From positions 1 through 36,238 of the forward strand of contig JAGWZR010000001.1 in the NCBI GenBank assembly GCA_018968795.1: 36,238 nt of DNA, in the 5' to 3' direction. Origin of the DNA: Planctomycetota bacterium. GTDB taxonomy: Bacteria > Planctomycetota > Brocadiia > Brocadiales > Brocadiaceae. The notes beneath the pieces were generated by a model. It was not told the DNA's origin, made no database searches, and was given only the letters and a program-made list of their open reading frames with translations. Position 1 is the stretch's first letter. Each line of letters begins with the position of its first letter. Both the position numbers and the translations under genes were made by a program. Of this stretch, positions 146 through 13,669 are shown piece after piece.

Positions 146-736
146 CTACTGAAGCTTTACCGATAGGGTAATTAATCGAGTTACAGCAAAATAGCAAATA
201 AAAGAACCAAGTCCAAGATGAGACCAGAATCTAATTGCCTTTGGGTAAAGATAAGCAATAACACTCATTACTATTCCAAATATATCAACACACATAGAAA
301 TTTTTAAATCTATAGGTACAGTTTTATTAGGTGAAATATGACAGTAACAGCATCCTTGTCTAAGTAATATTGCGCAGAAAAGAAAGATGAACATTCCAAT
401 GGATATTTTCAGTAGATAATCCTTCGTCCATGACTCATTAATGATTTGCACTAAAATAATGAATGGAAGACTGACGAAAAACAAATCAAAAAACAAAAGG
501 ATGCGTCTGTAAGGTACTCCAAGTGTTGTATGATACGTGTATAGAACAATATATAACTCTAAGAAAATCAACAGCGCTAATAATTGCAAATTAAATCTGA
601 AATTTTTTATGAAGTATTTAAAGTTTAAAATTTTTCCATTAGTATTAATAAAGGATTTAGAGGTTTCCATGAGTAAGACAGTAAGGATAACAACCTGGGC
701 ATATTCAAGGAATTTAAGTAAATAATTATTTTCCAT
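146..736 (-). CDS. Hypothetical multi-spanning membrane protein
   Basis: The protein has 196 residues and I do not recognise its family. It starts at an ATG with GGAGG six bases upstream, so the start is secure. About six hydrophobic stretches are visible (near residues 10-25, 50-68, 78-98, 108-126, 148-166 and 172-190), separated by short polar loops, so it is probably an inner-membrane protein. A cysteine/histidine cluster, CCYCH, lies near residues 128-132 at the end of the fourth helix and could bind a metal or haem or form a disulfide; this is inference only. The gene sits 44 bases ahead of the partial KAS III gene on the same strand, which suggests a role in lipid or secondary metabolism. 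It could also be an unrelated orphan. Confidence 0.7.
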   Translation of the reverse strand: MENNYLLKFLEYAQVVILTVLLMETSKSFINTNGKILNFKYFIKNFRFNLQLLALLIFLELYIVLYTYHTTLGVPYRRILLFFDLFFVSLPFIILVQIINESWTKDYLLKISIGMFIFLFCAILLRQGCCYCHISPNKTVPIDLKISMCVDIFGIVMSVIAYLYPKAIRFWSHLGLGSFICYFAVTRLITLSVKLQ

Positions 737-2438: not shown

Positions 2439-3974
2439 CTAAGAGGATTTTCTCATCGTGGAAGTCGTGCTTTCCATGATGGCATTCACCAATCCAGGGA
2501 TGGTATATTCCTTGGCTTTAATATCGACATGGAGCCCCAATTCTTCTGCAGTTTGTGTGGTAATGGGGCCAATGCTGGCAAACTGGACGCGTCCGTTTAA
2601 GGACGAAATGTTTTTCTCACCAACGATTTGAATAAAGTTTCTTACTGTGGATGAGCTGGTGAATGTTACAATATTAACCTCGCCATTTTTGATTTTTTCA
2701 ATAAGGTTAATATCTTTAGGTTGTGCCATGACGGTCTTATAAGCCACAAGGTCTGTAACCTTTCCCCCTAACTTTTGAAGCTCTTCTGGGAGAAAGCTTC
2801 TGGCTATATCCGCCCTTGGTAATAAGAATTTTTCACCTTTTATAGCCGTTACCTTCTTTAACTCTTCTACAACGGACTCTGCAACAAACTTGGGCGGCAT
2901 GCAATCAACCTTTATGTGATATTTTTTTATTCCTTCTTCCGTTGCAGGGCCTATAGTACAAAGCTTGAGACCTTTCAGTTCCCTGATATCCTTTCCTAAC
3001 TCGAACAGCCGTTGGAAGAAGGCGTCAACCCCGTTAATGCTGGTAAAAACAAGCCAATTATAAGAATGAATATTTTTAATGGCTTCGTCCAGCGGCTGAA
3101 TGGAATCAGGTTTTGCAATTTCAATGGTGGGAAATTCAATGACGTGGGCGCCATATTCGTATAATTTATCGGCAAACTCACTGGCCTGCTCCCTCGAACG
3201 CGTCACGACAATCGTTTTCCCAAACAACGGTTTGGTCTCAAACCAGTTGAGTTGATCCCGGAGTTTTACAACCTCACCGACTATCGTAATTGCCGGAGGT
3301 TTTATGTCTTTGGCTTTTTGTACAATGGTACCCAGCGTTCCTACCACGGTTTTTTGTTGAGTCGTAGTTCCCCACCGGATTACGGCAACAGGGGTATCTT
3401 TGGAACGGCCATGTTTCATAAGTTGTTCGGTAATGTAAGGGAGGTTCTTAATCCCCATATAAAAAGCAAGTGTGCCGATACCGGTGCTAATCTTTGCCCA
3501 GTCAATGGAACTTTCGTCTTTTGTGGGGTCTTCGTGTCCGGTGATCAGTCCAAAGGTAGAGGTGCAGTCACGATGGGTAACAGGAATACCTGCATAGTTA
3601 GGGGTTGCAATGGCTGCAGTAATGCCGGGAACGACCTCGAAAGGGATATGGTTTTCGTGGAGCACCAGCGCCTCTTCTCCGCCGCGTCCGAAGACATACG
3701 GATCTCCACCCTTTAATCGTGTGACAATTTTGTCTTCCAGCGCCTTTTTTACAATGAGTTCATTAATCTCTTCCTGCTCAAGGGTGTGCGCGCCTCCCTG
3801 CTTACCCACGTAGATAAATTCTGCTTCAGGCTTGGCAATTTTGAGGAGGTCGACATTTACCAGATAATCGTAAATAAGCACGTCGGCTTTCTTAATACAT
3901 TCCAGGCCTTTTACGGTGATAAGGCGTGGGTCGCCAGGGCCTGCGCCTACAAGATATACCATACTGCGTTTCAT
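2439..3974 (-). CDS. cobA-hemD: Uroporphyrinogen-III C-methyltransferase / uroporphyrinogen-III synthase fusion
   Basis: Two enzymes in one 511-residue chain. Residues about 1-245 form a SUMT (CobA) domain: VYLVGAGPGDPRLIT near the start, then RLKGGDPYVFGRGGEE and VPGITAA, the SAM-binding signatures. This half methylates uroporphyrinogen III to precorrin-2, leading to sirohaem, cobalamin or haem d1. Residues about 255-505 form a HemD domain (KTIVVTRSREQASEFADKL, later FTSINGVDAFF and FTSSSTVRNF), which closes hydroxymethylbilane into uroporphyrinogen III. Such fusions are known in several phyla and place both steps of the branch point in one protein. ATG at 3974 has a GAAAGG about ten bases ahead. 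The gene appears monocistronic: no other tetrapyrrole gene is adjacent. Confidence 0.93.
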   Translation of the reverse strand: MKRSMVYLVGAGPGDPRLITVKGLECIKKADVLIYDYLVNVDLLKIAKPEAEFIYVGKQGGAHTLEQEEINELIVKKALEDKIVTRLKGGDPYVFGRGGEEALVLHENHIPFEVVPGITAAIATPNYAGIPVTHRDCTSTFGLITGHEDPTKDESSIDWAKISTGIGTLAFYMGIKNLPYITEQLMKHGRSKDTPVAVIRWGTTTQQKTVVGTLGTIVQKAKDIKPPAITIVGEVVKLRDQLNWFETKPLFGKTIVVTRSREQASEFADKLYEYGAHVIEFPTIEIAKPDSIQPLDEAIKNIHSYNWLVFTSINGVDAFFQRLFELGKDIRELKGLKLCTIGPATEEGIKKYHIKVDCMPPKFVAESVVEELKKVTAIKGEKFLLPRADIARSFLPEELQKLGGKVTDLVAYKTVMAQPKDINLIEKIKNGEVNIVTFTSSSTVRNFIQIVGEKNISSLNGRVQFASIGPITTQTAEELGLHVDIKAKEYTIPGLVNAIMESTTSTMRKSS

Positions 3975-4158: not shown

Positions 4159-5958
4159 CTACGGTTTTTGTGCAGCCTTTTTATAATAAGCCATCGTTTC
4201 TTTATTAGCCTCTATTCTTTCGATAGCCTCAATCGCATTTTCTCGAATATCGGCATTTTTGTTATTGGTCAGATCACGAAGTGCAGAAAGGGCCTCTGGA
4301 TTACCAATCCTGCCTAATGCCCAGGCTGCAGAACTTACGACTGCGGGTTCTTTGTCCTTGAGCGCCCATATGAGTGAAGTAACTGCCCTTTCATCCCCAA
4401 TCCAACCGAGAGTTTGCGCCGCACGTTCTCTTGCAAACTTGTTAATTTCATGCAGTGCGCTAATTAATGGCCTTACTGCGGGAGCGCCGATCTTTGCCAG
4501 CGCCCAGCTTGCCCTGCGCCTCGTTGCTTCTTCATTATCTCTCAAGGCGCTTATCAATAAAGGGACAGATTTTTTGCCCATTGTTGATAATGCCCATGCA
4601 GCCCTCGTACGTGTCCATGCAGCATCTTCCCCTGCATCTGTAGTAAGAATGTTGGCGAGGGTACCCATAGCCTTATCGCTCCCTATATGACTGAGTGCAT
4701 CAACGCAGGCGCTCTTCACATACCAGTTTTTTTCTTTCGAGAGTATATTAATCAAAGTAAAAACCACACCCTGGCCTCCTAGTGTTCCCAAAGCCCTTGC
4801 TATATCGTATTTTACTCCATGGTAGGTTTCGTTTTTAAATGCTTCGATAAGTTTTGGAACTGCTTGGGTATCGTTTAACCTTTTCAGCGCAAGCACAGCC
4901 TCCCTGCGCACCTCGGCATTTTTGTCTATCAGGAGAGATTCTATGTGTTCTCCTATGCTTTCATCACCGCAAAATCCGAGCGTCCAAGCAGCGTTTTGTC
5001 TTATGTGTGGATGTTTATTTCCAAGAAATTTTAAGAGCGGCGGTAAGGTGTAGTTCTTTGGGAATACCATCAGTCCAAGAGCGGCCGTTTTTGCCTTATC
5101 ATTGTCGTCTGTGCTTTCCATCGTCTCCAGTAATGTTTTTACTTCTTTTTGAATGTATGCGGCGTTACTGTTGGTCTCCTGCTGGGGACTAATAATTTCT
5201 TTATTCTTGAACAGTCCTTTATTAATGATTATTTTACTTTTGACGTTCAAAATATCCAATACAACACACGGATAGTCCACTAGAATAACATCCACGCCCA
5301 TCTTAACTCGCTCCTTCATGACCTTTCTGTTATCACTGTCGAGTACGAGCGAAAACGCGTATTTTTTTTCTCCATGTATACTATTAAGTTTTTCCGGAGT
5401 CATCTCCTCTTGTGATACAAATACAAGTTCTTTGCCGTGCAACTCTGCATCTTCCGGATTGAAATTGCTACACATCCCGCACAAATATACCTGTGAAGAC
5501 ATTCCGCATTCTTTGACGATGTCCAATATTCGTTTTTCCAGACAAGCCTGTTTGACATTCAGAATCAATTTGAGGTTATTGACTTTGCAAAATTTTAGCA
5601 CATCGGAAAGTAACGGCGCCCGCTCTCCCTTAAACTCATCACCGCGCCATGAACCAGCGTCATACTGCTTTATTTCAGCGTATAATAGCTGATCGATAAT
5701 GCCTCTCCCGTCAGTTGTTCTATCGATTGTCTCATCACACATCAATATAAGCTTATCGTCTTTTGTTTGCCGAACGTCGATTTCGAGCCCATCGATTCCT
5801 AATTCAAGGGCTCTTTTTAATGCAGCAAAGGTGTTTTCCGGAACATCCTCGAGAATGCCATGACGTGCAAAAATTTCGACCCCCTTTGCGTCCTCCACAA
5901 AAACCGACGCTACAGAGGAAAATACGAGTAATAAAATTATTATCAGTAAGTACCGCAT
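4159..5958 (-). CDS. Secreted GDPD-like domain fused to HEAT repeats
   Basis: The chain has 599 residues. Residues 1-23 are a hydrophobic signal peptide or anchor. Residues about 27-245 match the glycerophosphodiester phosphodiesterase barrel (VPENTFAALKRALELGIDGL, the metal ligands E59 and D61 in LEIDV, and DRTTDGRG). Residues about 270-590 are about nine HEAT/PBS-lyase-type repeats (patterns such as RENAIEAIERI, RRRASWALAKIGAPA, VSSAAWALGRIGNPEA). Two catalytic positions are unusual: the family AHRG reads A-R-H-G at 31-34, and the second histidine, normally in an H-D pair, is Cys74 (MCDE). The enzyme may therefore be inactive or altered and act as a binding or scaffold protein. It starts 13 bases after the LptC/A-like gene and is the last gene of the kds-lpt operon, so an envelope role is likely. 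Confidence 0.85.
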   Translation of the reverse strand: MRYLLIIILLLVFSSVASVFVEDAKGVEIFARHGILEDVPENTFAALKRALELGIDGLEIDVRQTKDDKLILMCDETIDRTTDGRGIIDQLLYAEIKQYDAGSWRGDEFKGERAPLLSDVLKFCKVNNLKLILNVKQACLEKRILDIVKECGMSSQVYLCGMCSNFNPEDAELHGKELVFVSQEEMTPEKLNSIHGEKKYAFSLVLDSDNRKVMKERVKMGVDVILVDYPCVVLDILNVKSKIIINKGLFKNKEIISPQQETNSNAAYIQKEVKTLLETMESTDDNDKAKTAALGLMVFPKNYTLPPLLKFLGNKHPHIRQNAAWTLGFCGDESIGEHIESLLIDKNAEVRREAVLALKRLNDTQAVPKLIEAFKNETYHGVKYDIARALGTLGGQGVVFTLINILSKEKNWYVKSACVDALSHIGSDKAMGTLANILTTDAGEDAAWTRTRAAWALSTMGKKSVPLLISALRDNEEATRRRASWALAKIGAPAVRPLISALHEINKFARERAAQTLGWIGDERAVTSLIWALKDKEPAVVSSAAWALGRIGNPEALSALRDLTNNKNADIRENAIEAIERIEANKETMAYYKKAAQKP

Positions 5959-5971
5959 TTATTTGTCTCTA

Positions 5972-7963
5972 TTATTCTGAGTTAATCTTCTTTTGATTGG
6001 TGATGAGTTGCCAATGGGGCCTTCCTTCCCAGGTAACCCGTTTCCCAGCCATATCAAAACATACATGTTCTGAAAATGTCCTTGCGCCTTCTTTCCGTAA
6101 TTCTGCCTTTGGATTGCCCGTCAGCAAGGCCGTATTTCGGATCAAATCCCAGGTGAGAAGCGACCCAAATCCCTCACTGCCGTTCAATTCCTTGCTAAAA
6201 AAATAAACATTGCCTGCGGCAATAATTTTACTTATCTTACTATTCCCGCCCAAGTAGGCGTCAATTTGGTCACCGTTCAATTTTTGCCCGCCCCGTACAG
6301 CCTGTACTTCTTCATAAAAGCTCGCCTTTTTTAGTTCGTTACTATACACCATTTTCTTCTTCCAATTAACCTTTATATCGGTTTCCTCCGTGCCTTTATT
6401 GGGGAGTGCCTTATCGCCTTTTTCGTATAAACTGCCTTCACCCTCGCAAAGGATGGTATTTGAATCTTCATAAAATAAAACCCTTGGCGAGAGGATTTGC
6501 CTTTTGTTCCCTTCTCTGAGGAGTGCAAAGGGATACCCTTTCAAGATCGTAACTTTATTTTTTGCATTCCACGTAACTCTATCTCCCACAGCCTCGCTGT
6601 AGAGGTTGTCTTTCTTATCTATGATATGAATTTTTTCCGAAGCCTTAAAACTCCGCATGTTATAATCATGATCATTAAACGTTATATCAAGATTATTACA
6701 TCGAAGAATAGAATCTTCAGTTTTAACTTCAATGTTCTTTTCAAAATTAGCTTCTCTTTTATCATCCAGGAAATTCATCTTCCCTTCCCATTTCACACTA
6801 ATGTTAGTAGTGTCATCAGGATCAGTTTTGTCTGTCTTGACCACTCTTCCTCTTCTCTTTATTCCCTTAATTTTTCTGGCTTTCAAACTGCCCGAACTCG
6901 GAACGTCTATTTTACCCGTATCTTTGTAAAAGATTATTTTCAGCGCGTCAATGTTCAGGTCGTCTTTAACAAATTCAGCTTTAATGGTGTCTTCAAGTAT
7001 TGCGCTCTGCGTATTAACGTCCCACGTTAAAAAATTCCCCTTGGCGATTTTCGTTCCTTGTGATGCGAGCACATTTCCGCTGGCAATGGCCTGTTTTGTT
7101 CTCTTTGTTTCTGGATCAAAAAAAACAGTCAGCTTATCAGAAAAAACAGTCGAACTGCCTTTTTCTACCTCTACATGGTCGTTAAAGGTCATGACATTCG
7201 CTTCTCGGTACCTATCAAACAAAAGTTGTCCGCTCGATCGGATAAATGTCTTTTCCACCACTGTTTCTTTCGTGCCATTTTCCTCAGTAATTGCGTCTTC
7301 CATAGTATTTTGCTCACTTTGTGGAGTGCTATTCGACAAGAAAAAAAGATCGTTTTTAATGCCATCCATCTCCATTTCTGCGTCTTTTTTGATCCACATC
7401 TTTTTATTGACAAGATCTATTTCACATCCTTGCCCCGTAATCTTTATACCTTTCCCATTGATGGTAACGAAATCGTCTGTATCCACAAATTTTCTTTCGG
7501 GTAAATACTTCAAATAATTCGTGGTAAGGCTTGTTTCCTCATCGAGACGAACAACCACATTGTCGGAGAGATAGCCTTCGTTAGAGGTTTTATTCATCTC
7601 CCCGCTATCAGATGTAATGAGAACAGATTGCGTTCCCCGTTCAGTATTTGCAGAATCCAGCACCTCAATCTCCGGTGCGGTGATCTTGTAAATATTATCG
7701 TTAAGCAGGAAGGTATTCTCGCCGCGCATTATGAAAACCTCTTTCCCCTTTTCATCATAGCTTGGCATTAATAGCCCTTGCACCGTTTGGGTTATGGTGT
7801 CCGTCCTGTCATGCGGCTGTTTATGTGCCGAAGATCTTTCCTTTGAAGTTCGGTTTTCCTTTTGACTATCGATGTCTTTTTTCGATTGGATAATAAGGGA
7901 TGCGATGATAAAGAGTATACATGCCGCAGGAATGCTAATGAGTAAGTATCTTCTTTTGGTCAT
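5972..7963 (-). CDS. LptC/LptA (OstA)-like LPS export protein with several repeats
   Basis: The chain has 663 residues. An N-terminal membrane anchor (about residues 5-26, after MTKRR) is followed by a periplasmic, beta-rich region. Blocks of the OstA/LptA type recur: segments resembling ITAPEIEVLDS, then W-x-x-K-x-x-A-x-F-x-x-x-V and A-x-GNV-x(n)-LTWD-x(n)-A-x-L are seen near residues 235-345, 385-490 and 535-650. LptC (about 190 residues) and LptA (about 180) normally form the beta-jellyroll bridge that carries LPS across the periplasm. Here anchor and several bridge modules seem fused in one chain. The position right after kdsD-kdsC fits the kdsD-kdsC-lptC-lptA order of other Gram-negatives. 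ATG at 7963 has no clear ribosome site. No lptB follows; the next gene is the GDPD-HEAT protein. Confidence 0.8.
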   Translation of the reverse strand: MTKRRYLLISIPAACILFIIASLIIQSKKDIDSQKENRTSKERSSAHKQPHDRTDTITQTVQGLLMPSYDEKGKEVFIMRGENTFLLNDNIYKITAPEIEVLDSANTERGTQSVLITSDSGEMNKTSNEGYLSDNVVVRLDEETSLTTNYLKYLPERKFVDTDDFVTINGKGIKITGQGCEIDLVNKKMWIKKDAEMEMDGIKNDLFFLSNSTPQSEQNTMEDAITEENGTKETVVEKTFIRSSGQLLFDRYREANVMTFNDHVEVEKGSSTVFSDKLTVFFDPETKRTKQAIASGNVLASQGTKIAKGNFLTWDVNTQSAILEDTIKAEFVKDDLNIDALKIIFYKDTGKIDVPSSGSLKARKIKGIKRRGRVVKTDKTDPDDTTNISVKWEGKMNFLDDKREANFEKNIEVKTEDSILRCNNLDITFNDHDYNMRSFKASEKIHIIDKKDNLYSEAVGDRVTWNAKNKVTILKGYPFALLREGNKRQILSPRVLFYEDSNTILCEGEGSLYEKGDKALPNKGTEETDIKVNWKKKMVYSNELKKASFYEEVQAVRGGQKLNGDQIDAYLGGNSKISKIIAAGNVYFFSKELNGSEGFGSLLTWDLIRNTALLTGNPKAELRKEGARTFSEHVCFDMAGKRVTWEGRPHWQLITNQKKINSE

Positions 7964-8011
7964 GATGGTATAAAAATAAAAACGCCTTTCATTGGTTTAA
8001 ATTACCTTATC

Positions 8012-8271
8012 CTAAAATATACTGTTTCTTCTATCATTTACTGTAAAAATAAGGTTTAATTGTTCTTCTGGAATGTAACGTGACGCCTGCTTAATTATTA
8101 CACGCAGGGTTCCCAAATCTAATTCGTCATGGATTGCGCTTGCTTCGCTCCTGCAGTGCTAATGCGTCTGAGTTTTACATGTGAGCCTTTTTGTGAATGA
8201 GATGTAAATCCAAATTTGTTTAAAATCGAAATAACTTCCTTTCCAGATAATCTTTTCAATTTAGGCGACAT
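8012..8271 (-). pseudogene. hicA: Frameshifted HicA mRNA-interferase toxin
   Basis: An ATG at 8269-8271 overlaps the hicB stop region by 11 bases and encodes 50 residues ending at TAG (8119-8121). They read MSPKLKRLSGKEVISILNKF and then GFTSHSQKGSHVKLRR, the double-stranded-RNA-binding-like HicA fold with the catalytic histidine in KGSHVKLR. The rest of the domain continues in another frame: HDELDLGTLRVIIKQASRY followed by IPEEQL, ending at TAG (8012-8014). A deletion near 8125-8135 removed several bases, so the T-I-P-x-H segment is lost and the frame changes. The first frame still holds the catalytic His, but the truncated product lacks the C-terminal helix and is probably inactive. Intact HicA would be about 80 residues. 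Confidence 0.75.
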
Positions 8272-8515
8272 TCGCTATGAGTTCCAATTCCATAGTTACT
8301 ACCAAAGTCGGATTCAGCGCCAAACCAAATTCGGACAAATCTTCGTTCTCTAAATGCAGCGCTACCGCTTCTTTGAGATTAGTAATTGTTTCATCAAGAG
8401 TTTTCCCCTGCGTAACAACGGCTATTTCCAGACACTCTGCCACATAATAATCTTCACCTTTTCTGACAAAAGCTTTAATGGTATGTTGAAAACTTTCTGG
8501 ATTTCTATCACTCAT
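8261..8515 (-). CDS. hicB: HicB-family antitoxin
   Basis: It has 84 residues and a partial RNase H-like fold of the HicB type: YYVAECLEIAVVTQGKTLDE and NLKEAVALHLE are the typical strand-helix signatures. HicB neutralises HicA and often represses its own operon, although no separate DNA-binding domain is visible in this short version. The gene begins four bases after the kdsC stop; its AAGGAG lies inside the end of kdsC, so it is translated from the kds operon message. The order hicB-hicA is the reverse of the E. coli order but occurs elsewhere. The partner toxin at 8012-8271 is frameshifted, leaving this antitoxin as an orphan. Confidence 0.85.
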   Translation of the reverse strand: MSDRNPESFQHTIKAFVRKGEDYYVAECLEIAVVTQGKTLDETITNLKEAVALHLENEDLSEFGLALNPTLVVTMELELIANVA

Positions 8516-8519
8516 ATTT

Positions 8520-9059
8520 TTAACTCCTTTCCTTTTCGGGGCGCTCCTGATAGCGTTCCAAAATAAGATGCCATTTATCTTGAAATTTCAGTACCTTTTC
8601 CGCAACCTCTCTCACTGCACCACAACCCCCCTTTGCCTTTGTTACGTAAAGTGATTGGTTTTTAACGATAGGCGAGGCATTAGCAACCGCAACAGGAAAG
8701 CCCACGAGGTGGAGTATTGGAAGATCTATAAGGTCGTCACCGATATAACATATTTCTTCATCTCGAAGCGCATATTTCTCACGTATTTCTTTATATGCAT
8801 CTAATTTATTTATAGCCCCTTGATACACATCTGTAATATTCAGTTCTTTTGCTCTATGCGTTACAGCATCACAGGTTCTTCCGCTGATAATGGCGGTTTT
8901 GATGCCAGCACGATGAAGATATGAAATACCTGTGCCATCCAACACATGGAATGCCTTTGTTTCACGTCCGTCGGAATCAATATAAATAGCGCCATCCGTC
9001 AGAACACCATCAACGTCAATAATAACAAGTTTTATATCTTTCAAAAATTTAAATACCAA
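8520..9059 (-). CDS. kdsC: 3-deoxy-D-manno-octulosonate 8-phosphate phosphatase
   Basis: A HAD-superfamily phosphatase of 179 residues that removes phosphate from Kdo-8-P to give Kdo, a core sugar of LPS. Motif I is IIDVDGVLTDG with D15 and D17 as nucleophile and acid/base; motif II is the SGR triplet; motif IV is IGDDLIDLP. The length matches the tetrameric C0-type KdsC without a cap domain. The start is a TTG at 9059 that overlaps the kdsD stop by 11 bases; no ATG is available in the N-terminal region and the ribosome site is poor, so translational coupling to kdsD is likely. An alternative TTG five codons later (9044) is possible. Confidence 0.92.
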   Translation of the reverse strand: MVFKFLKDIKLVIIDVDGVLTDGAIYIDSDGRETKAFHVLDGTGISYLHRAGIKTAIISGRTCDAVTHRAKELNITDVYQGAINKLDAYKEIREKYALRDEEICYIGDDLIDLPILHLVGFPVAVANASPIVKNQSLYVTKAKGGCGAVREVAEKVLKFQDKWHLILERYQERPEKERS

Positions 9060-10032
9060 CCTCTAACAAATCTTGTACGTCTATGATGCCAACCGGTGTA
9101 TAGGAATCATCAATCACGGGGATTTGATCTATCTTATACTCTTTTAGTATTTTGTATGCCTCAGCAACTAAACAGCGGGCATTTATGACTTTGGGCGACC
9201 GCGTCATAAACTCTTTCACCCTACCTCGCAATGATACGCCATTTTTCAAATGTCTTCTCAGATCACCATCGGTAAAAAATCCCACCAGCTTATTTTGTTT
9301 ATCGATAATACTCACAGCACCGGGTTTACCCACTGTTTCCGTCATGATTTTAAGAACCGCTGACAAAAGCGCATCCTCATCGGCCACTGGGTTTTCTTCG
9401 CCCTTGCGCATGACCATTTCTACCGTGAGTAATTTTCTACCAAGTTCTCCACCCGGATGATAGAAGGCATAGTCCTCTTTGCTAAGATTCCGCTTTTTAA
9501 ATATCGTAAGGGACAAGGCGTCACCTAGCGCAAGCATGGCGGTTGAGCTTGCGGATGGGGCGAGGCCTAATGGGCACGGTTCTTCGATCTTTCCGATATC
9601 AAGCACAACATCACTATACTGAGCCAGAGATGATTTATTATTTCCGGTGATAGCAATTACTTTCGCCCCGATCTGTTTCACAAAAGGTAAAAGCGTAACA
9701 ACTTCTGTTTCACCGCTGTTGGAAAGCGCCAGAACGATGTCGTCCACAACAACCCGTCCAAGGTCACCATGCCTTGCCTCCGACGAATGAATCCAGTACG
9801 AAGGGGTTCCCGTGCTGGCCAATGTCGCAGAAATTTTCTGCCCAATAATCCCCGCCTTCCCAATGCCAGTAACTACCACTCGGCCTTTACAGTTGAAAAT
9901 TAAATCAACGGCTCTTTGAAAATTATGATCGAGGCGGTCAATCAGATTCTTTATTGCTTCCGATTCGAGGAATAGTACATCCTTTGCGAAGGCAATGTCA
10001 GGTGAAGTTTTTTTCCCATTACTTATTGGCAT
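9049..10032 (-). CDS. kdsD: Arabinose-5-phosphate isomerase (KdsD/KpsF/GutQ family)
   Basis: This enzyme converts ribulose 5-phosphate to arabinose 5-phosphate, the first committed step to Kdo. The N-terminal SIS domain (about residues 30-180) shows VVVTGIGKAGIIGQKISATL, then STGTPSYWIHSSEARHGDLG, which contains the active-site histidine, and ALSNSGET. Two CBS domains follow (about 205-325; MTRSPKVINARCLVAEAYKI and IDQIPVIDDS). The total of 327 residues is normal for the family. It is the first gene of the minus-strand envelope operon, and the promoter at 10091-10119 fits. The ATG at 10032 has no recognisable ribosome site. Confidence 0.94.
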   Translation of the reverse strand: MPISNGKKTSPDIAFAKDVLFLESEAIKNLIDRLDHNFQRAVDLIFNCKGRVVVTGIGKAGIIGQKISATLASTGTPSYWIHSSEARHGDLGRVVVDDIVLALSNSGETEVVTLLPFVKQIGAKVIAITGNNKSSLAQYSDVVLDIGKIEEPCPLGLAPSASSTAMLALGDALSLTIFKKRNLSKEDYAFYHPGGELGRKLLTVEMVMRKGEENPVADEDALLSAVLKIMTETVGKPGAVSIIDKQNKLVGFFTDGDLRRHLKNGVSLRGRVKEFMTRSPKVINARCLVAEAYKILKEYKIDQIPVIDDSYTPVGIIDVQDLLEVGI

Positions 10033-10090
10033 TTAATCAAGATTGCATATTTTGAAATGGAATCGATGATTTTCACATGTAGCGTGATTA

Positions 10091-10119
10091 ATTATAGAGA
10101 ACAATCCCTTCATATTCAA
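10091..10119 (-). promoter_or_regulatory. Promoter of the kdsD-kdsC-hicB-lpt operon
   Basis: On the minus strand TTGAAT (10114-10119), a 17-base spacer, then a perfect TATAAT (10091-10096). It lies about 60 bases before the kdsD ATG and is divergent from the promoter at 10170-10198. Confidence 0.6.
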
Positions 10120-10169
10120 GAGAAAAGAACGGGTTGTCGACGATAAAAGGATTAATAAGTGTTCTAAGC

Positions 10170-10198
10170 TTGACAACTTATTTCCGTTGTGTTAGGAT
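10170..10198 (+). promoter_or_regulatory. Promoter of the M50 protease - scpA operon
   Basis: A perfect TTGACA (10170-10175), a 17-base spacer and TAGGAT (10193-10198). The predicted transcript begins near 10205, which excludes the upstream GTG at 10189 as a start for the next gene. Confidence 0.65.
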
Positions 10199-10230
10199 GC
10201 CGACAATTCAAAAAGGAGATTTGCGTATTT

Positions 10231-10863
10231 GTGAACTTAGCTAACTTAATTATATCTATCCCAACGATTCTTTATGCATTAACCATTCACGAATATTTCC
10301 ACGGTTGGACTGCCAATAAGTTTGGCGATCCCACGGCAAAATTGCAAGGGCGATTAACATTGAATCCCCTGGCGCATATTGACATTATGGGTGCGCTGTG
10401 TTTTGTCTTTGCCCGTTTCGGGTGGGGTAAACCCGTTCCTATAAATCCTTCCTATTTTCGGAATCCGCGCAGAGATAATATGATTGTATCCTTTGCAGGT
10501 CCCGCATCCAATTTTGTTTCTGCGTTTTTGTTTGGCGTAATTTTTCAACTGTTACGCAGTATACCATTCATCATACCGGTAAATATAGCTGCCATCTTAT
10601 ATAATTTATTAATATCAGGAATCATTATGAATCTATCGCTAGCTTTTTTCAATATGATCCCTTTGTTTCCATTGGATGGTTCTCATATCTTGGAGGGGCT
10701 GTTGCCTCATTCAATAGCAATGAAATATAAAGAAGTCGAACGCTACTGTCCCTTCATTTTGTTAGGATTGATTGTCATGGGAAATTTTACAGGATTCTCC
10801 ATTTTAAGTGTAATGCTTGGTCCACCCATTCAATACTTTCTAAGGGTATTTACAGGTTTATAA
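10231..10863 (+). CDS. Site-2 protease family (M50) membrane metalloprotease
   Basis: An intramembrane zinc protease of the short M50 type, 210 residues. HEYFH at residues 20-24, in the first helix, is the HExxH zinc site. NMIPLFPLDGSHIL in a late helix carries the third zinc ligand (the Asp of PLDG). At least four further hydrophobic segments are visible, and SFAGPASNF is the usual conserved loop. No PDZ domain is present. I use the GTG at 10231, since the longer frame from GTG 10189 would start upstream of the predicted transcription start; an AAGGAG lies 12 bases before 10231. Members of this subfamily next to scpA are common in many phyla, but the natural substrate is generally unknown. 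Confidence 0.88.
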   Translation: MNLANLIISIPTILYALTIHEYFHGWTANKFGDPTAKLQGRLTLNPLAHIDIMGALCFVFARFGWGKPVPINPSYFRNPRRDNMIVSFAGPASNFVSAFLFGVIFQLLRSIPFIIPVNIAAILYNLLISGIIMNLSLAFFNMIPLFPLDGSHILEGLLPHSIAMKYKEVERYCPFILLGLIVMGNFTGFSILSVMLGPPIQYFLRVFTGL

Positions 10864-10884
10864 TTTTTAGAGGGTAAACAAAAA

Positions 10885-11625
10885 ATGGCAAGCGAATATA
10901 AAGTAGATTTGGACATTTATAATGGCCCTATAGATTTACTCCTTTATCTGATCCGAAAAGAGGAAGTAAATATCTATGACATTCCCATCGCTCGGATTAC
11001 AGATCAGTACTTACAATATGTTGAGGTACTGCAAACCTTAGATATGAACATGGTAGGGGATTTCTTGGTAATGGCTGCCACGCTTATGTACATCAAGTCG
11101 TACATGCTCATTCCTCGCACAGAGCAACACATAAATGATGAGGATGTGGAAGACCCAAGGTTGTCACTGGTAAAACAACTACTGGAATATAAACGGTACA
11201 AAGAAAGTACCTTCATTTTGGCTGCAAAGGCCACCGAGTGGGAAAAAAAATGGACAAGAATAAACAATATCCCTTTCGGCGAAACGCCAGATAAACCAGA
11301 CAAAAAGGAAGAAGAACTACCTTTGGAAGGCGTAAGCATATGGTACCTTTTTCAAAGGTTTTCTCAACTCATGAAACAAACTTTGTTTAATGTTCCCACG
11401 AAAGTTACTTATGATGACACGCCAGTACAAGAATACATGAACGAGGTGTTAGAAAAGATACATTTCTATACTTCTATTTCATTTACAAATCTTTTTGAGG
11501 GAATAAACGAAAGGAGTAGAATTATTGGATTTTTCTTAGCCCTATTAGAACTGGTTCGTTTAAATCGGATAAAAATTGAGCAACTAGCCAACTACGCTGA
11601 CATCCAAATTTCCTCGCATCCCTAA
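10885..11625 (+). CDS. scpA: Segregation and condensation protein A
   Basis: ScpA is the kleisin that bridges the SMC heads in the bacterial condensin. The 246-residue chain begins with the typical YNGPIDLLLYLIRKEEVNIY and continues with IPIARITDQYLQYVE, the helical N-terminal domain that binds the SMC neck, and ends in a winged-helix C-terminus (FFLALLELVRLNRI). A GAGGG precedes the ATG by nine bases. It follows the M50 gene by 21 bases, as in many genomes. The usual partner scpB is not next to it and is not elsewhere in the window; smc itself lies 8.4 kb downstream in the same orientation. Confidence 0.93.
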   Translation: MASEYKVDLDIYNGPIDLLLYLIRKEEVNIYDIPIARITDQYLQYVEVLQTLDMNMVGDFLVMAATLMYIKSYMLIPRTEQHINDEDVEDPRLSLVKQLLEYKRYKESTFILAAKATEWEKKWTRINNIPFGETPDKPDKKEEELPLEGVSIWYLFQRFSQLMKQTLFNVPTKVTYDDTPVQEYMNEVLEKIHFYTSISFTNLFEGINERSRIIGFFLALLELVRLNRIKIEQLANYADIQISSHP

Positions 11626-11700
11626 CCTAAATTAAAAGTATCCTAATTTTAATTTGAAATTATTGGACTAGTTTGTTAGCATTTCGAGTTTGTTAATAAT

Positions 11701-11729
11701 TTTACCGAACATTTTAAATAGATTATAGA
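11701..11729 (+). promoter_or_regulatory. Candidate promoter for the Trm112-like gene and yidC
   Basis: TTTACC (11701-11706), a 17-base spacer and TATAGA (11724-11729), about 62 bases ahead of the ATG at 11792. The match is moderate. A 9-bp AT-only inverted repeat at 11629-11655 lies between the scpA stop and this site. Confidence 0.3.
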
Positions 11730-11791
11730 GATTAATATCGCACCTGCGACTCCAAAATACCGAATAAACGTCCTTTCCGGAGGAAATCATC

Positions 11792-11971
11792 ATGATTACC
11801 AAGGAACTGCTAGAAATTCTTGCATGTCCATTATGTAAGACAGATGTCCGGCTAGAAGATGACAGGATTGTATGTACAAAGTGTGGGCGACGCTATCCAA
11901 TAAGAGACGATATTCCTGTTATGCTTATTGATGAAGCTGAATTATCAGAAGAACCAAAAAAGGAAAATTAG
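11792..11971 (+). CDS. Trm112-like zinc-ribbon protein (YcaR family)
   Basis: A 59-residue protein. It begins MITKELLEILACPLCK, the classic opening of Trm112/YcaR proteins, and has four zinc-ligand cysteines, C12, C15, C28 and C31 (CPLC and CTKC), followed by RRYPIRDDIPVML, the usual end of the domain. A GGAGG stands eight bases before the ATG, so the start is firm. In eukaryotes and some bacteria Trm112 activates methyltransferases; the role of the bacterial small form is not settled, although it often sits near envelope or lipid A genes. Its TAG stop is directly followed by the yidC ATG with no gap, so the two are translationally coupled. Confidence 0.88.
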   Translation: MITKELLEILACPLCKTDVRLEDDRIVCTKCGRRYPIRDDIPVMLIDEAELSEEPKKEN

Positions 11972-13669
11972 ATGGATAGAAAAGCACTTATCGCTATAAT
12001 TGTTTGCGGGGTGATCATGTTATTGTATTACCCCTTTATATTACCTTTGCTCTCGCCCAAAAAGTCAAAACCCCTTACCGATGAAGCGAAAGAAGAAGCG
12101 GTTTCTGGAAAACCTTACGAAACAAAGGTTACGAAGTCTAAGTCTTCGCCGACGTTACCAACGCAACCTATCCAATCTCAATTAGACATCCCTCTAAAAG
12201 AAGTTGTCCTTGAAAATGAACTCATAAAAATAGTATGGACAAATGAAGGGGCTGCGATTAACTCTATTAAACTCAAAAAATTCAAAGATCCAGAGGCAAA
12301 AAATACGCTTGAGTTAGTAAAGGATAGCGATACTGAATATCGTTCACTTGCTATCGACAATATACTTCAAAAAACAAATTTTCAAAGTCAGCGATATACT
12401 ATTACTGAACAAGGCGAGGGGAAAATTGTATTTAGCGCTGGTTTGGGAGATGGAATCAATCTCATTAAAACCGTCAATTTGTCTCCAAATAGTTACCATG
12501 TAGATATGGAAATTGCGTTGGGAAATAATACCGATACAGAGATTTCATTGGCATACGATATCATTGCATCCTCCGCAATTACACATGAAGGCATACCCTC
12601 CACTGATATGGCGGCTACGTCCGGCGTAGATATGGGAAACAGAAAGATTAAATTAATACGTGCATCACCAAAAGAATTGCCATCTAAAAATGAATCGGTA
12701 GGTATTGTTTGGGCTGGATCAATGAATAAGTATTTTGCCACAATTTTAAAACCTGCATCCAGTGATTGGGTTGAATCCATTAATTCACAAGCATTCGACA
12801 TCCAAGGAATGCCTTCGAATGAAAAATCAGAACAAGGCGATTTTATGGTCAGTTTACAAACAAACAAACTCCGTATCCCCCCCCACGAGACCGTTAAACA
12901 TAGTTATATATATTTTATGGGACCAAAAACAGAGGCGGTTTTAGATCAATACGATACTTTGGATGCGCTTCTCAGTTACGGTTGGTTTAATTCTATTTGC
13001 AAAGTACTTTTGGCTTTTTTAAATGTCGTCCATCGTGTAATTCCCAATTATGGCATTTCAATCATTCTATTAACCATCATCATTAAGGCTATCTTATTCC
13101 CACTAACAAAAAAGAGTCAAGTTTCTATGTTTAGAATGCAACAATTGCAACCTATGATTAATCAACTCAAAGAGAAGTATAAACATGATAAACAAAGGAT
13201 GGGAAAGGAGCAGATGCTGTTATTCAAAAAATATGGGGCGAATCCAATGAGTGGCTGTTTGCCTATGTTATTGCAGCTTCCGGTTTTCTTTGCGCTCTTC
13301 CGTACGCTCCAGCTTTCTTTTGAAATGAGACAGGCTCCCTTTTTGCTCTGGATCAATGATCTCTCAAGGCCAGACACCTTGTTATTGCTTCCATTTTCTA
13401 TACCGTTCCTCGGAAAAGCACTCAATATATTGCCGTTAATTATGACAGGCGCTTCCTTTGCCCAGATGAAGTTAACGCCCAAGGCCCCCGCAGCAGATTC
13501 ACAAGCGCAAGCCCAACAAAAAATGATGTCGTTTATGCCTATCATGTTTGCATTTATATTATACCACATGCCCTCAGGTCTTACGGTTTACTGGACAACA
13601 AGTACGATATTTAGTATCATTGAAAGTCTTATAATTCGAAAAACAATTAAAAAGATAAAAACCAAATAA
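11972..13669 (+). CDS. yidC: Membrane protein insertase YidC (Gram-negative type)
   Basis: YidC inserts and folds inner-membrane proteins alone or with SecYEG. The 565-residue chain has an N-terminal helix (about 7-25), a large periplasmic beta-supersandwich domain (about 70-320), and the conserved core of five helices from about 350: YGISIILLTIIIKAILFPLT, the coiled cytoplasmic loop (MQQLQPMINQLKEKYKHDKQ), NPMSGCLPMLLQLPVFFALF and LTVYWTTSTIFSI. The periplasmic domain identifies the Gram-negative form. A GGAAAA lies before the ATG, which abuts the Trm112-like stop. The gene jag, often between yidC and mnmE, is absent. Confidence 0.95.
   Translation: MDRKALIAIIVCGVIMLLYYPFILPLLSPKKSKPLTDEAKEEAVSGKPYETKVTKSKSSPTLPTQPIQSQLDIPLKEVVLENELIKIVWTNEGAAINSIKLKKFKDPEAKNTLELVKDSDTEYRSLAIDNILQKTNFQSQRYTITEQGEGKIVFSAGLGDGINLIKTVNLSPNSYHVDMEIALGNNTDTEISLAYDIIASSAITHEGIPSTDMAATSGVDMGNRKIKLIRASPKELPSKNESVGIVWAGSMNKYFATILKPASSDWVESINSQAFDIQGMPSNEKSEQGDFMVSLQTNKLRIPPHETVKHSYIYFMGPKTEAVLDQYDTLDALLSYGWFNSICKVLLAFLNVVHRVIPNYGISIILLTIIIKAILFPLTKKSQVSMFRMQQLQPMINQLKEKYKHDKQRMGKEQMLLFKKYGANPMSGCLPMLLQLPVFFALFRTLQLSFEMRQAPFLLWINDLSRPDTLLLLPFSIPFLGKALNILPLIMTGASFAQMKLTPKAPAADSQAQAQQKMMSFMPIMFAFILYHMPSGLTVYWTTSTIFSIIESLIIRKTIKKIKTK

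Follow-up and report, generated by a model that had tools for sequence, protein, structure and literature searches.

The window analysed here, a stretch of 36,238 nucleotides taken as a whole, carries a gene for a GDPD-like barrel fused to HEAT repeats, and our comparison of its counterparts across the order Brocadiales gives good support to a loss of GDPD catalysis in these fusions. The catalytic set is lost order-wide, the barrel is under strong purifying selection and the gene is linked to that of a fused LptC-LptA protein (lptCA), which together lead us to regard the family as a pseudo-GDPD present throughout the order that probably serves LPS export as a periplasmic scaffold or docking protein. 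In its fullest form, this reading is of an exported pseudoenzyme that would act as a structural or docking module and would not hydrolyse glycerophosphodiesters; with secretion, inactivity and role all deduced from sequence, we judge it an evenly balanced proposition. GDPDs are commonly taken to be housekeeping enzymes of lipid degradation, and a family search would call this gene a phosphodiesterase, despite the loss of the residues of the known mechanism. The observations below point to a new function, one without catalysis, in the construction of the cell envelope.

Architecture of the fusion protein

The gene and its parts are as follows.

4159..5958 (-), GDPD-HEAT fusion protein, 599 aa, ATG start (open reading frame and Pfam)
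5893..5958 (-), N-terminal hydrophobic stretch, likely a Sec signal peptide, residues 1-22 (sequence by eye)
5239..5889 (-), GDPD-like TIM-barrel domain, residues 24-240 (Pfam, model and PDB matches)
4171..5163 (-), about nine HEAT repeats, residues 266-596, 19 helices (Pfam HEAT_2/HEAT_PBS and model)

The Pfam GDPD family (PF03009) matches the 599-aa protein with an E value of 1.2e-25 (91.5 bits against a cut-off of 23.6), best over residues 37-159, and HEAT_2 matches it at 6.5e-51. An AlphaFold2 model of the full-length protein, built on 42 aligned sequences, reached a pLDDT of 83.1 and a pTM of 0.82 and placed 19 helices between residues 266 and 596, which together with the HEAT_2 match marks tandem helical HEAT repeats; the barrel modelled alone gave 82.8 and 0.80. 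The closest PDB matches to the barrel model are entries titled GDPD, 1zcc from A. tumefaciens (Z 24.1, rmsd 2.5, 209 residues aligned) and 2pz0 from T. tengcongensis (Z 23.9, rmsd 2.6, 210 residues aligned), so that the fold is that of a GDPD TIM barrel. With these two enzymes the window barrel shares, besides the fold, the PENT, E-x-D and RTT-G-G motifs; it differs from them in its changed HR and HD histidines, its substrate-contact Arg and its third metal Glu, and in being fused to HEAT repeats and likely exported. A structure search with the full-length fusion returned separate GDPD entries and repeat proteins among its best 50 matches. A preliminary description of this DNA had proposed a signal peptide and about nine HEAT repeats; the repeats agree with the model, and the N-terminus, as judged by eye, likely is a signal peptide of the Sec type. 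The Pfam model found the fusion as the sole GDPD of the window's own genome, with no second one.

Gene neighbourhood and its bearing on function

The genes around the fusion are listed here; the names KdsC and KdsD are taken from the operon context.

5972..7963 (-), fused LptC-LptA protein, 663 aa, conserved upstream neighbour (Pfam LptC and LptD_N, LptA-like; TIGR04409; synteny)
8520..9059 (-), HAD hydrolase, read as KdsC (Pfam)
9049..10032 (-), SIS-CBS protein, read as KdsD, arabinose-5-phosphate isomerase (Pfam)
2439..3974 (-), uroporphyrinogen methylase-HemD fusion (cobA-hemD), the usual downstream gene (Pfam and synteny)

In the window the order runs kdsD-like, kdsC-like, a HicBA-like pair, lptCA, GDPD/HEAT, cobA-hemD, and the GDPD/HEAT gene starts 13 bases after that of the fused LptC-LptA protein, which scores above the cut-off of TIGR04409 and just below that of TIGR03002 (70.9 vs 71.7 bits). 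Among 52 relative loci, the upstream genes on the fusion's strand include lptCA in 49 and kdsC in 47, and cobA-hemD lies downstream on the same strand in 43, the misses in each case including contig ends. The fused lptCA has a match in 57 of the 62 genomes of the order and stands on the fusion's contig in 54 of 57 genomes (the 52 loci plus the window, G008, G025, G060 and G061 from coordinates). The exceptions are G017, where lptCA is on another contig and the fusion near a contig end, and the two f5 genomes, G036 and G039, where lptCA is present elsewhere and a Trypsin_2+PDZ (DegP-like) gene follows the fusion, a neighbour that suggests an envelope setting again. The preliminary description had the gene ending an LPS export operon. 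This holds for kdsD-kdsC-lptCA, and the arrangement is conserved, though cobA-hemD is usually next on the same strand.

This last gene also limits what position can tell us. cobA-hemD, which belongs to tetrapyrrole synthesis and is unrelated to LPS, is nearly as syntenic as lptCA, so that operon position is no proof of shared function. An incidental neighbourhood, with the protein serving as a periplasmic scaffold of a general kind and having no tie to LPS export, would also fit the generic nature of HEAT-PBS repeats and the separation of the gene from lptCA in both f5 genomes. The linkage in all but three of the genomes and the 13-base gap in the window speak against it, and we regard it as rather unlikely.

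The genomes that lack the gene do not help with this question. Matches to its GDPD part came from 55 of the 59 relatives' genomes and from 57 of the 62 genomes of Brocadiales, the genera named among the matches being Brocadia, Jettenia, Kuenenia, Scalindua and Anammoxibacter, and the GDPD-part match and lptCA are both missing in the same five genomes. One of these, G028, carries the HEAT part next to cobA-hemD on one contig, and its lack of the GDPD part is probably a contig break. The other four (G034, G040, G056 and G059) lack not only the fusion but also lptCA and an orthologue-level cobA-hemD, and the absences therefore give no independent support for the lptCA link; we rejected them as evidence, as missing sequence explains them as well as joint loss. 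LpxC, present in 60 of the 62 genomes, does not discriminate. Of the four genomes, G040 (94% complete, about 10 contigs) has LpxC and leaves the GDPD part, lptCA and an orthologue-level cobA-hemD unmatched, which may be either a missing stretch or a loss of the whole block.

Two further observations concern the window's other reading frames. Between kdsC and lptCA, within 8119-8515 (-), lie a HicA-like ORF (50 aa; Pfam HicA, E 1.6e-7, profile positions 1-27 of 58) and a HicB-like ORF (84 aa; DUF7387 below its cut-off), the latter found at the same place in 8 of the 52 relative loci, and we take them as a toxin-antitoxin-like pair lodged in the LPS operon. A hydrophobic ORF of 196 aa at 146-736 (-) has no Pfam match.

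Catalytic positions in the window protein

The GDPD of P. furiosus carries the motif HR..EN..ExD..HD; its acid and base are His17 and His59, its metal is bound by Glu44, Asp46 and Glu111, and docking adds Arg18 and Lys113 as further substrate contacts (PMC4926365). Spacing and alignment equate these residues with positions of the window protein: His17 with R32, Arg18 with H33, Glu44 with E59, Asp46 with D61, His59 with C74, Glu111 with N134 and Lys113 with K136.

5860..5865 (-), Arg32-His33 in place of the catalytic and substrate-contacting His-Arg pair (sequence and alignment; roles from PMC4926365)
5776..5784 (-), E59-x-D61, the first two metal ligands, retained in the window copy (alignment)
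5737..5739 (-), Cys74 in place of the second catalytic His (sequence and alignment)
5551..5559 (-), N134-x-K136, third metal ligand changed from Glu to Asn, Lys retained (sequence and alignment)

The HR motif of an active GDPD is thus replaced by R32-H33, its HD motif is broken by C74 and its metal site is incomplete, with E59 and D61 present and N134 as the third residue. That the family AHRG reads ARHG, that the second catalytic histidine is Cys74 and that the E-x-D pair is kept had all been read correctly from the window alone in the preliminary description; the Asn134 at the third metal ligand, absent from it, adds to these changes. A register shift of the HRG motif was considered and rejected, given that the distance from Gly34 to PENT and the other motif spacings are identical to those of ordinary GDPDs, and so was a sequencing error, since the changes recur or vary among orthologues from many genera, in an open GDPD frame.

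Loss of the catalytic set across Brocadiales

We surveyed the 55 Brocadiales proteins that were long enough, leaving out L055 and L056, which are cut by contig ends, and G028, where the GDPD part is missing. Not one of the 55 has the full set of seven catalytic residues. The canonical His is found at position 32 in 25 proteins and at position 74 in 14; Glu59 of the E-x-D pair is kept in 34 and lost in 21, Asp61 is kept in 53 and Lys136 in 40, and the third metal position (134) is never Glu and is Asp in 10. Arg33 survives in five, all within the window's family and none with His74 or Glu59. Both catalytic histidines are retained in two proteins (L025 and L030), which do not keep the remaining set. 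The Arg32-His33-Cys74 arrangement occurs in three of the 55, the window included, and hence is not a conserved motif. The lack of a full catalytic set is accordingly family-wide, and the refuting case named in the preliminary description, a lone degraded copy among normal homologues, does not hold within the order.

For comparison we used 61 ordinary GDPDs from 63 loci (L111-L173, with L117 and L133 dropped). The patterns used to find them include DRTT-G-G, whose invariance may be by construction; the catalytic columns lie outside the patterns. Columns 32, 33 and 74 have an entropy of 0 in these enzymes versus 1.91, 1.92 and 2.12 bits in 42 fusions, and column 59 one of 0.12 versus 1.95. PENT, D67, D75, D79, R80, T82, G84 and G86 are near 0 in both sets, those within DRTT-G-G being biased by the search patterns. 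By parsimony on the tree of 55, columns 32, 33, 59, 74 and 136 changed 11, 11, 9, 13 and 11 times, slightly above the domain median of 8 and about the domain average, so that five of the seven catalytic columns vary by lineage in Brocadiales and, on these counts, behave as ordinary positions, neither fixed nor hypervariable. On the same tree D61 and N/D134 changed twice each and most other motif columns once or not at all; PENT, D61, RTT, YDAG and W104 are nearly unchanged across the Brocadiales fusions.

Over 33 pairs, which are not independent, dN/dS has a median of 0.093 in the barrel against 0.166 in the HEAT part, and by this measure the barrel is under strong purifying selection and is not decaying. 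Y99, F123, K125, G161 and D209 are invariant in the fusion family and variable or different in ordinary GDPDs. The orthologues have lost catalytic residues with the fold and the gene under purifying selection, which is the mark of a pseudoenzyme. The suggestion in the preliminary description that a phosphodiesterase gave rise to a binding protein fits these data broadly, in the sense of a non-catalytic descendant.

Two other readings give the pocket a continuing function. In the first, it would bind a phosphodiester ligand such as an LPS or phospholipid headgroup without cleaving it, and the protein would be a lipid or LPS sensor or chaperone. The Asp of E-x-D in all but two proteins, the frequent Lys136, the retained EN, RTT-G-G and DAG motifs and the LPS export neighbourhood are all compatible with such a ligand. 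The Lys column, however, changed 11 times where one would expect constancy from a conserved ligand site, and the equivalent of Arg18, a docking contact in P. furiosus (PMC4926365), is kept in just five of the 55. Because of this last point binding without cleavage, while possible, is not favoured, and we hold it to be unlikely. A weak metal or ligand site could remain all the same, as E59, D61 and K136 persist in 34, 53 and 40 of the 55 proteins and D61 and N/D134 changed only twice; the unusual stability of the latter two leaves room for a residual metal site or a structural one. Moreover, the third metal position is Asp in 6 of the 61 ordinary GDPDs as well as in 10 of the 55, so that this change alone need not abolish metal binding.

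In the second reading, the protein would still be an enzyme, with altered or weak chemistry through the remaining metal ligands and replacement residues. Many members keep a partial metal site (E59, D61) and K136, two keep both histidines, and 13 of the 61 ordinary GDPDs have D or H at the third metal position. The acid and base histidines are nonetheless invariant in those 61 enzymes, and positions 32, 33 and 74 show no fixed replacement residue in the fusions. A new mechanism should fix residues, and with 9-13 changes at each of positions 32, 33, 59, 74 and 136 nothing new has been fixed at the catalytic positions; the enzyme with new chemistry offered in the preliminary description is therefore disfavoured, and we think it quite improbable.

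Neutral decay of a redundant enzyme, for which one might cite the average rate of drift at the catalytic positions and the broken frames in two genomes, is hardly credible, being contradicted by the 55-protein residue survey and by purifying selection (barrel dN/dS of about 0.09, many invariant positions) and by frames that reach at least 550 aa in 51 of 57 proteins of the order, four of the six short ones (L017, L027, L055 and L056) being cut by contig ends. In the other two, the HEAT part continues in another frame (G027: L007, and L092 around 6837-6845; G061: L184 around 8375), through either assembly error or real decay. A further match to the fusion profile was found in 9 of the 62 genomes, with a profile that may miss distant GDPDs.

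A possible role in LPS export

We return to the pseudo-GDPD as a scaffold or docking protein of LPS export, a role in export or at the outer membrane that we infer from the signal peptide, the linkage and the HEAT scaffold. The protein would be secreted to the periplasm, where the barrel would hydrolyse no glycerophosphodiesters. The HEAT superhelix would hold a partner, be it LptCA, LptD or some other factor of envelope assembly, and the barrel would offer a second interaction surface built from family-invariant residues, for example Y99, F123, K125, G161 and D209. A more specific version, to which we give tentative weight and which may well be wrong, would add a subunit peculiar to this order to the LPS export bridge of anammox bacteria: a dead phosphodiesterase barrel on a HEAT superhelix that docks LptC-LptA or LptD and takes part in building or sensing the outer membrane, in cells that are compartmentalised. 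For anammox bacteria an asymmetric outer membrane has been argued on genomic grounds, supported by transcript and proteome data (PMC3422733). A pseudo-GDPD that is strongly constrained throughout the order and encoded next to an LPS export gene would be a handle on the assembly of that membrane.

A comparable case may be the pseudokinase EcpK of Myxococcus exopolysaccharide synthesis, likewise catalytically degenerate and described in an envelope polysaccharide role, although as a kinase it belongs to an unrelated family (PMC12004946). By title or abstract start, in a literature search largely without subscription papers, we found no description of a pseudo-GDPD/HEAT protein; there is thus a weak case that a pseudoenzyme of a known family in this architecture and setting is new here.

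Origin of the fusion

A midpoint-rooted tree of GDPD domains (110 rows) sets the 44 fusions on one side of a branch with support of 100/96. Two proteins from other lineages share the GDPD-HEAT fusion. The first branch inside the clade is L109, from a MAG labelled Armatimonadota (JAUWAU010000014), which differs from the window protein in reading His-Arg-Glu-Asp-His-Asp-Lys at the seven positions; His, Arg, E-x-D, His and Lys are kept, with Asp as the third ligand, so that the catalytic positions are retained. The other, L174, comes from another order of the same class (genome G065) and shares the degeneracy of the window protein (MHWEPDK at the seven positions); it differs in its very long branch (2.37), and its place in the tree is unsure. 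None of the window's neighbour genes was found in the 7-kb locus of L174, and the 16.6-kb locus of L109 gave no match to 14 other window proteins used as queries. With L109 as query against 392 Planctomycetota genomes and at most three candidates scored per genome, no match covering both halves was found outside Brocadiales among the matches listed.

The simplest reading of this tree, in which the root is a midpoint and the intact deep branch is a single MAG, is that a working GDPD was joined once to HEAT repeats and that catalysis was then lost at or before the base of Brocadiales. A deep branch with intact residues would allow a direct test of this loss. L109 also has extra C-terminal glycan-lyase-like domains: its 1535-aa chain (7845-12452, +) combines the intact GDPD motif and HEAT repeats with DUF4962 and heparinase II/III-like domains, which suggests a glycan-degrading role for this intact relative.
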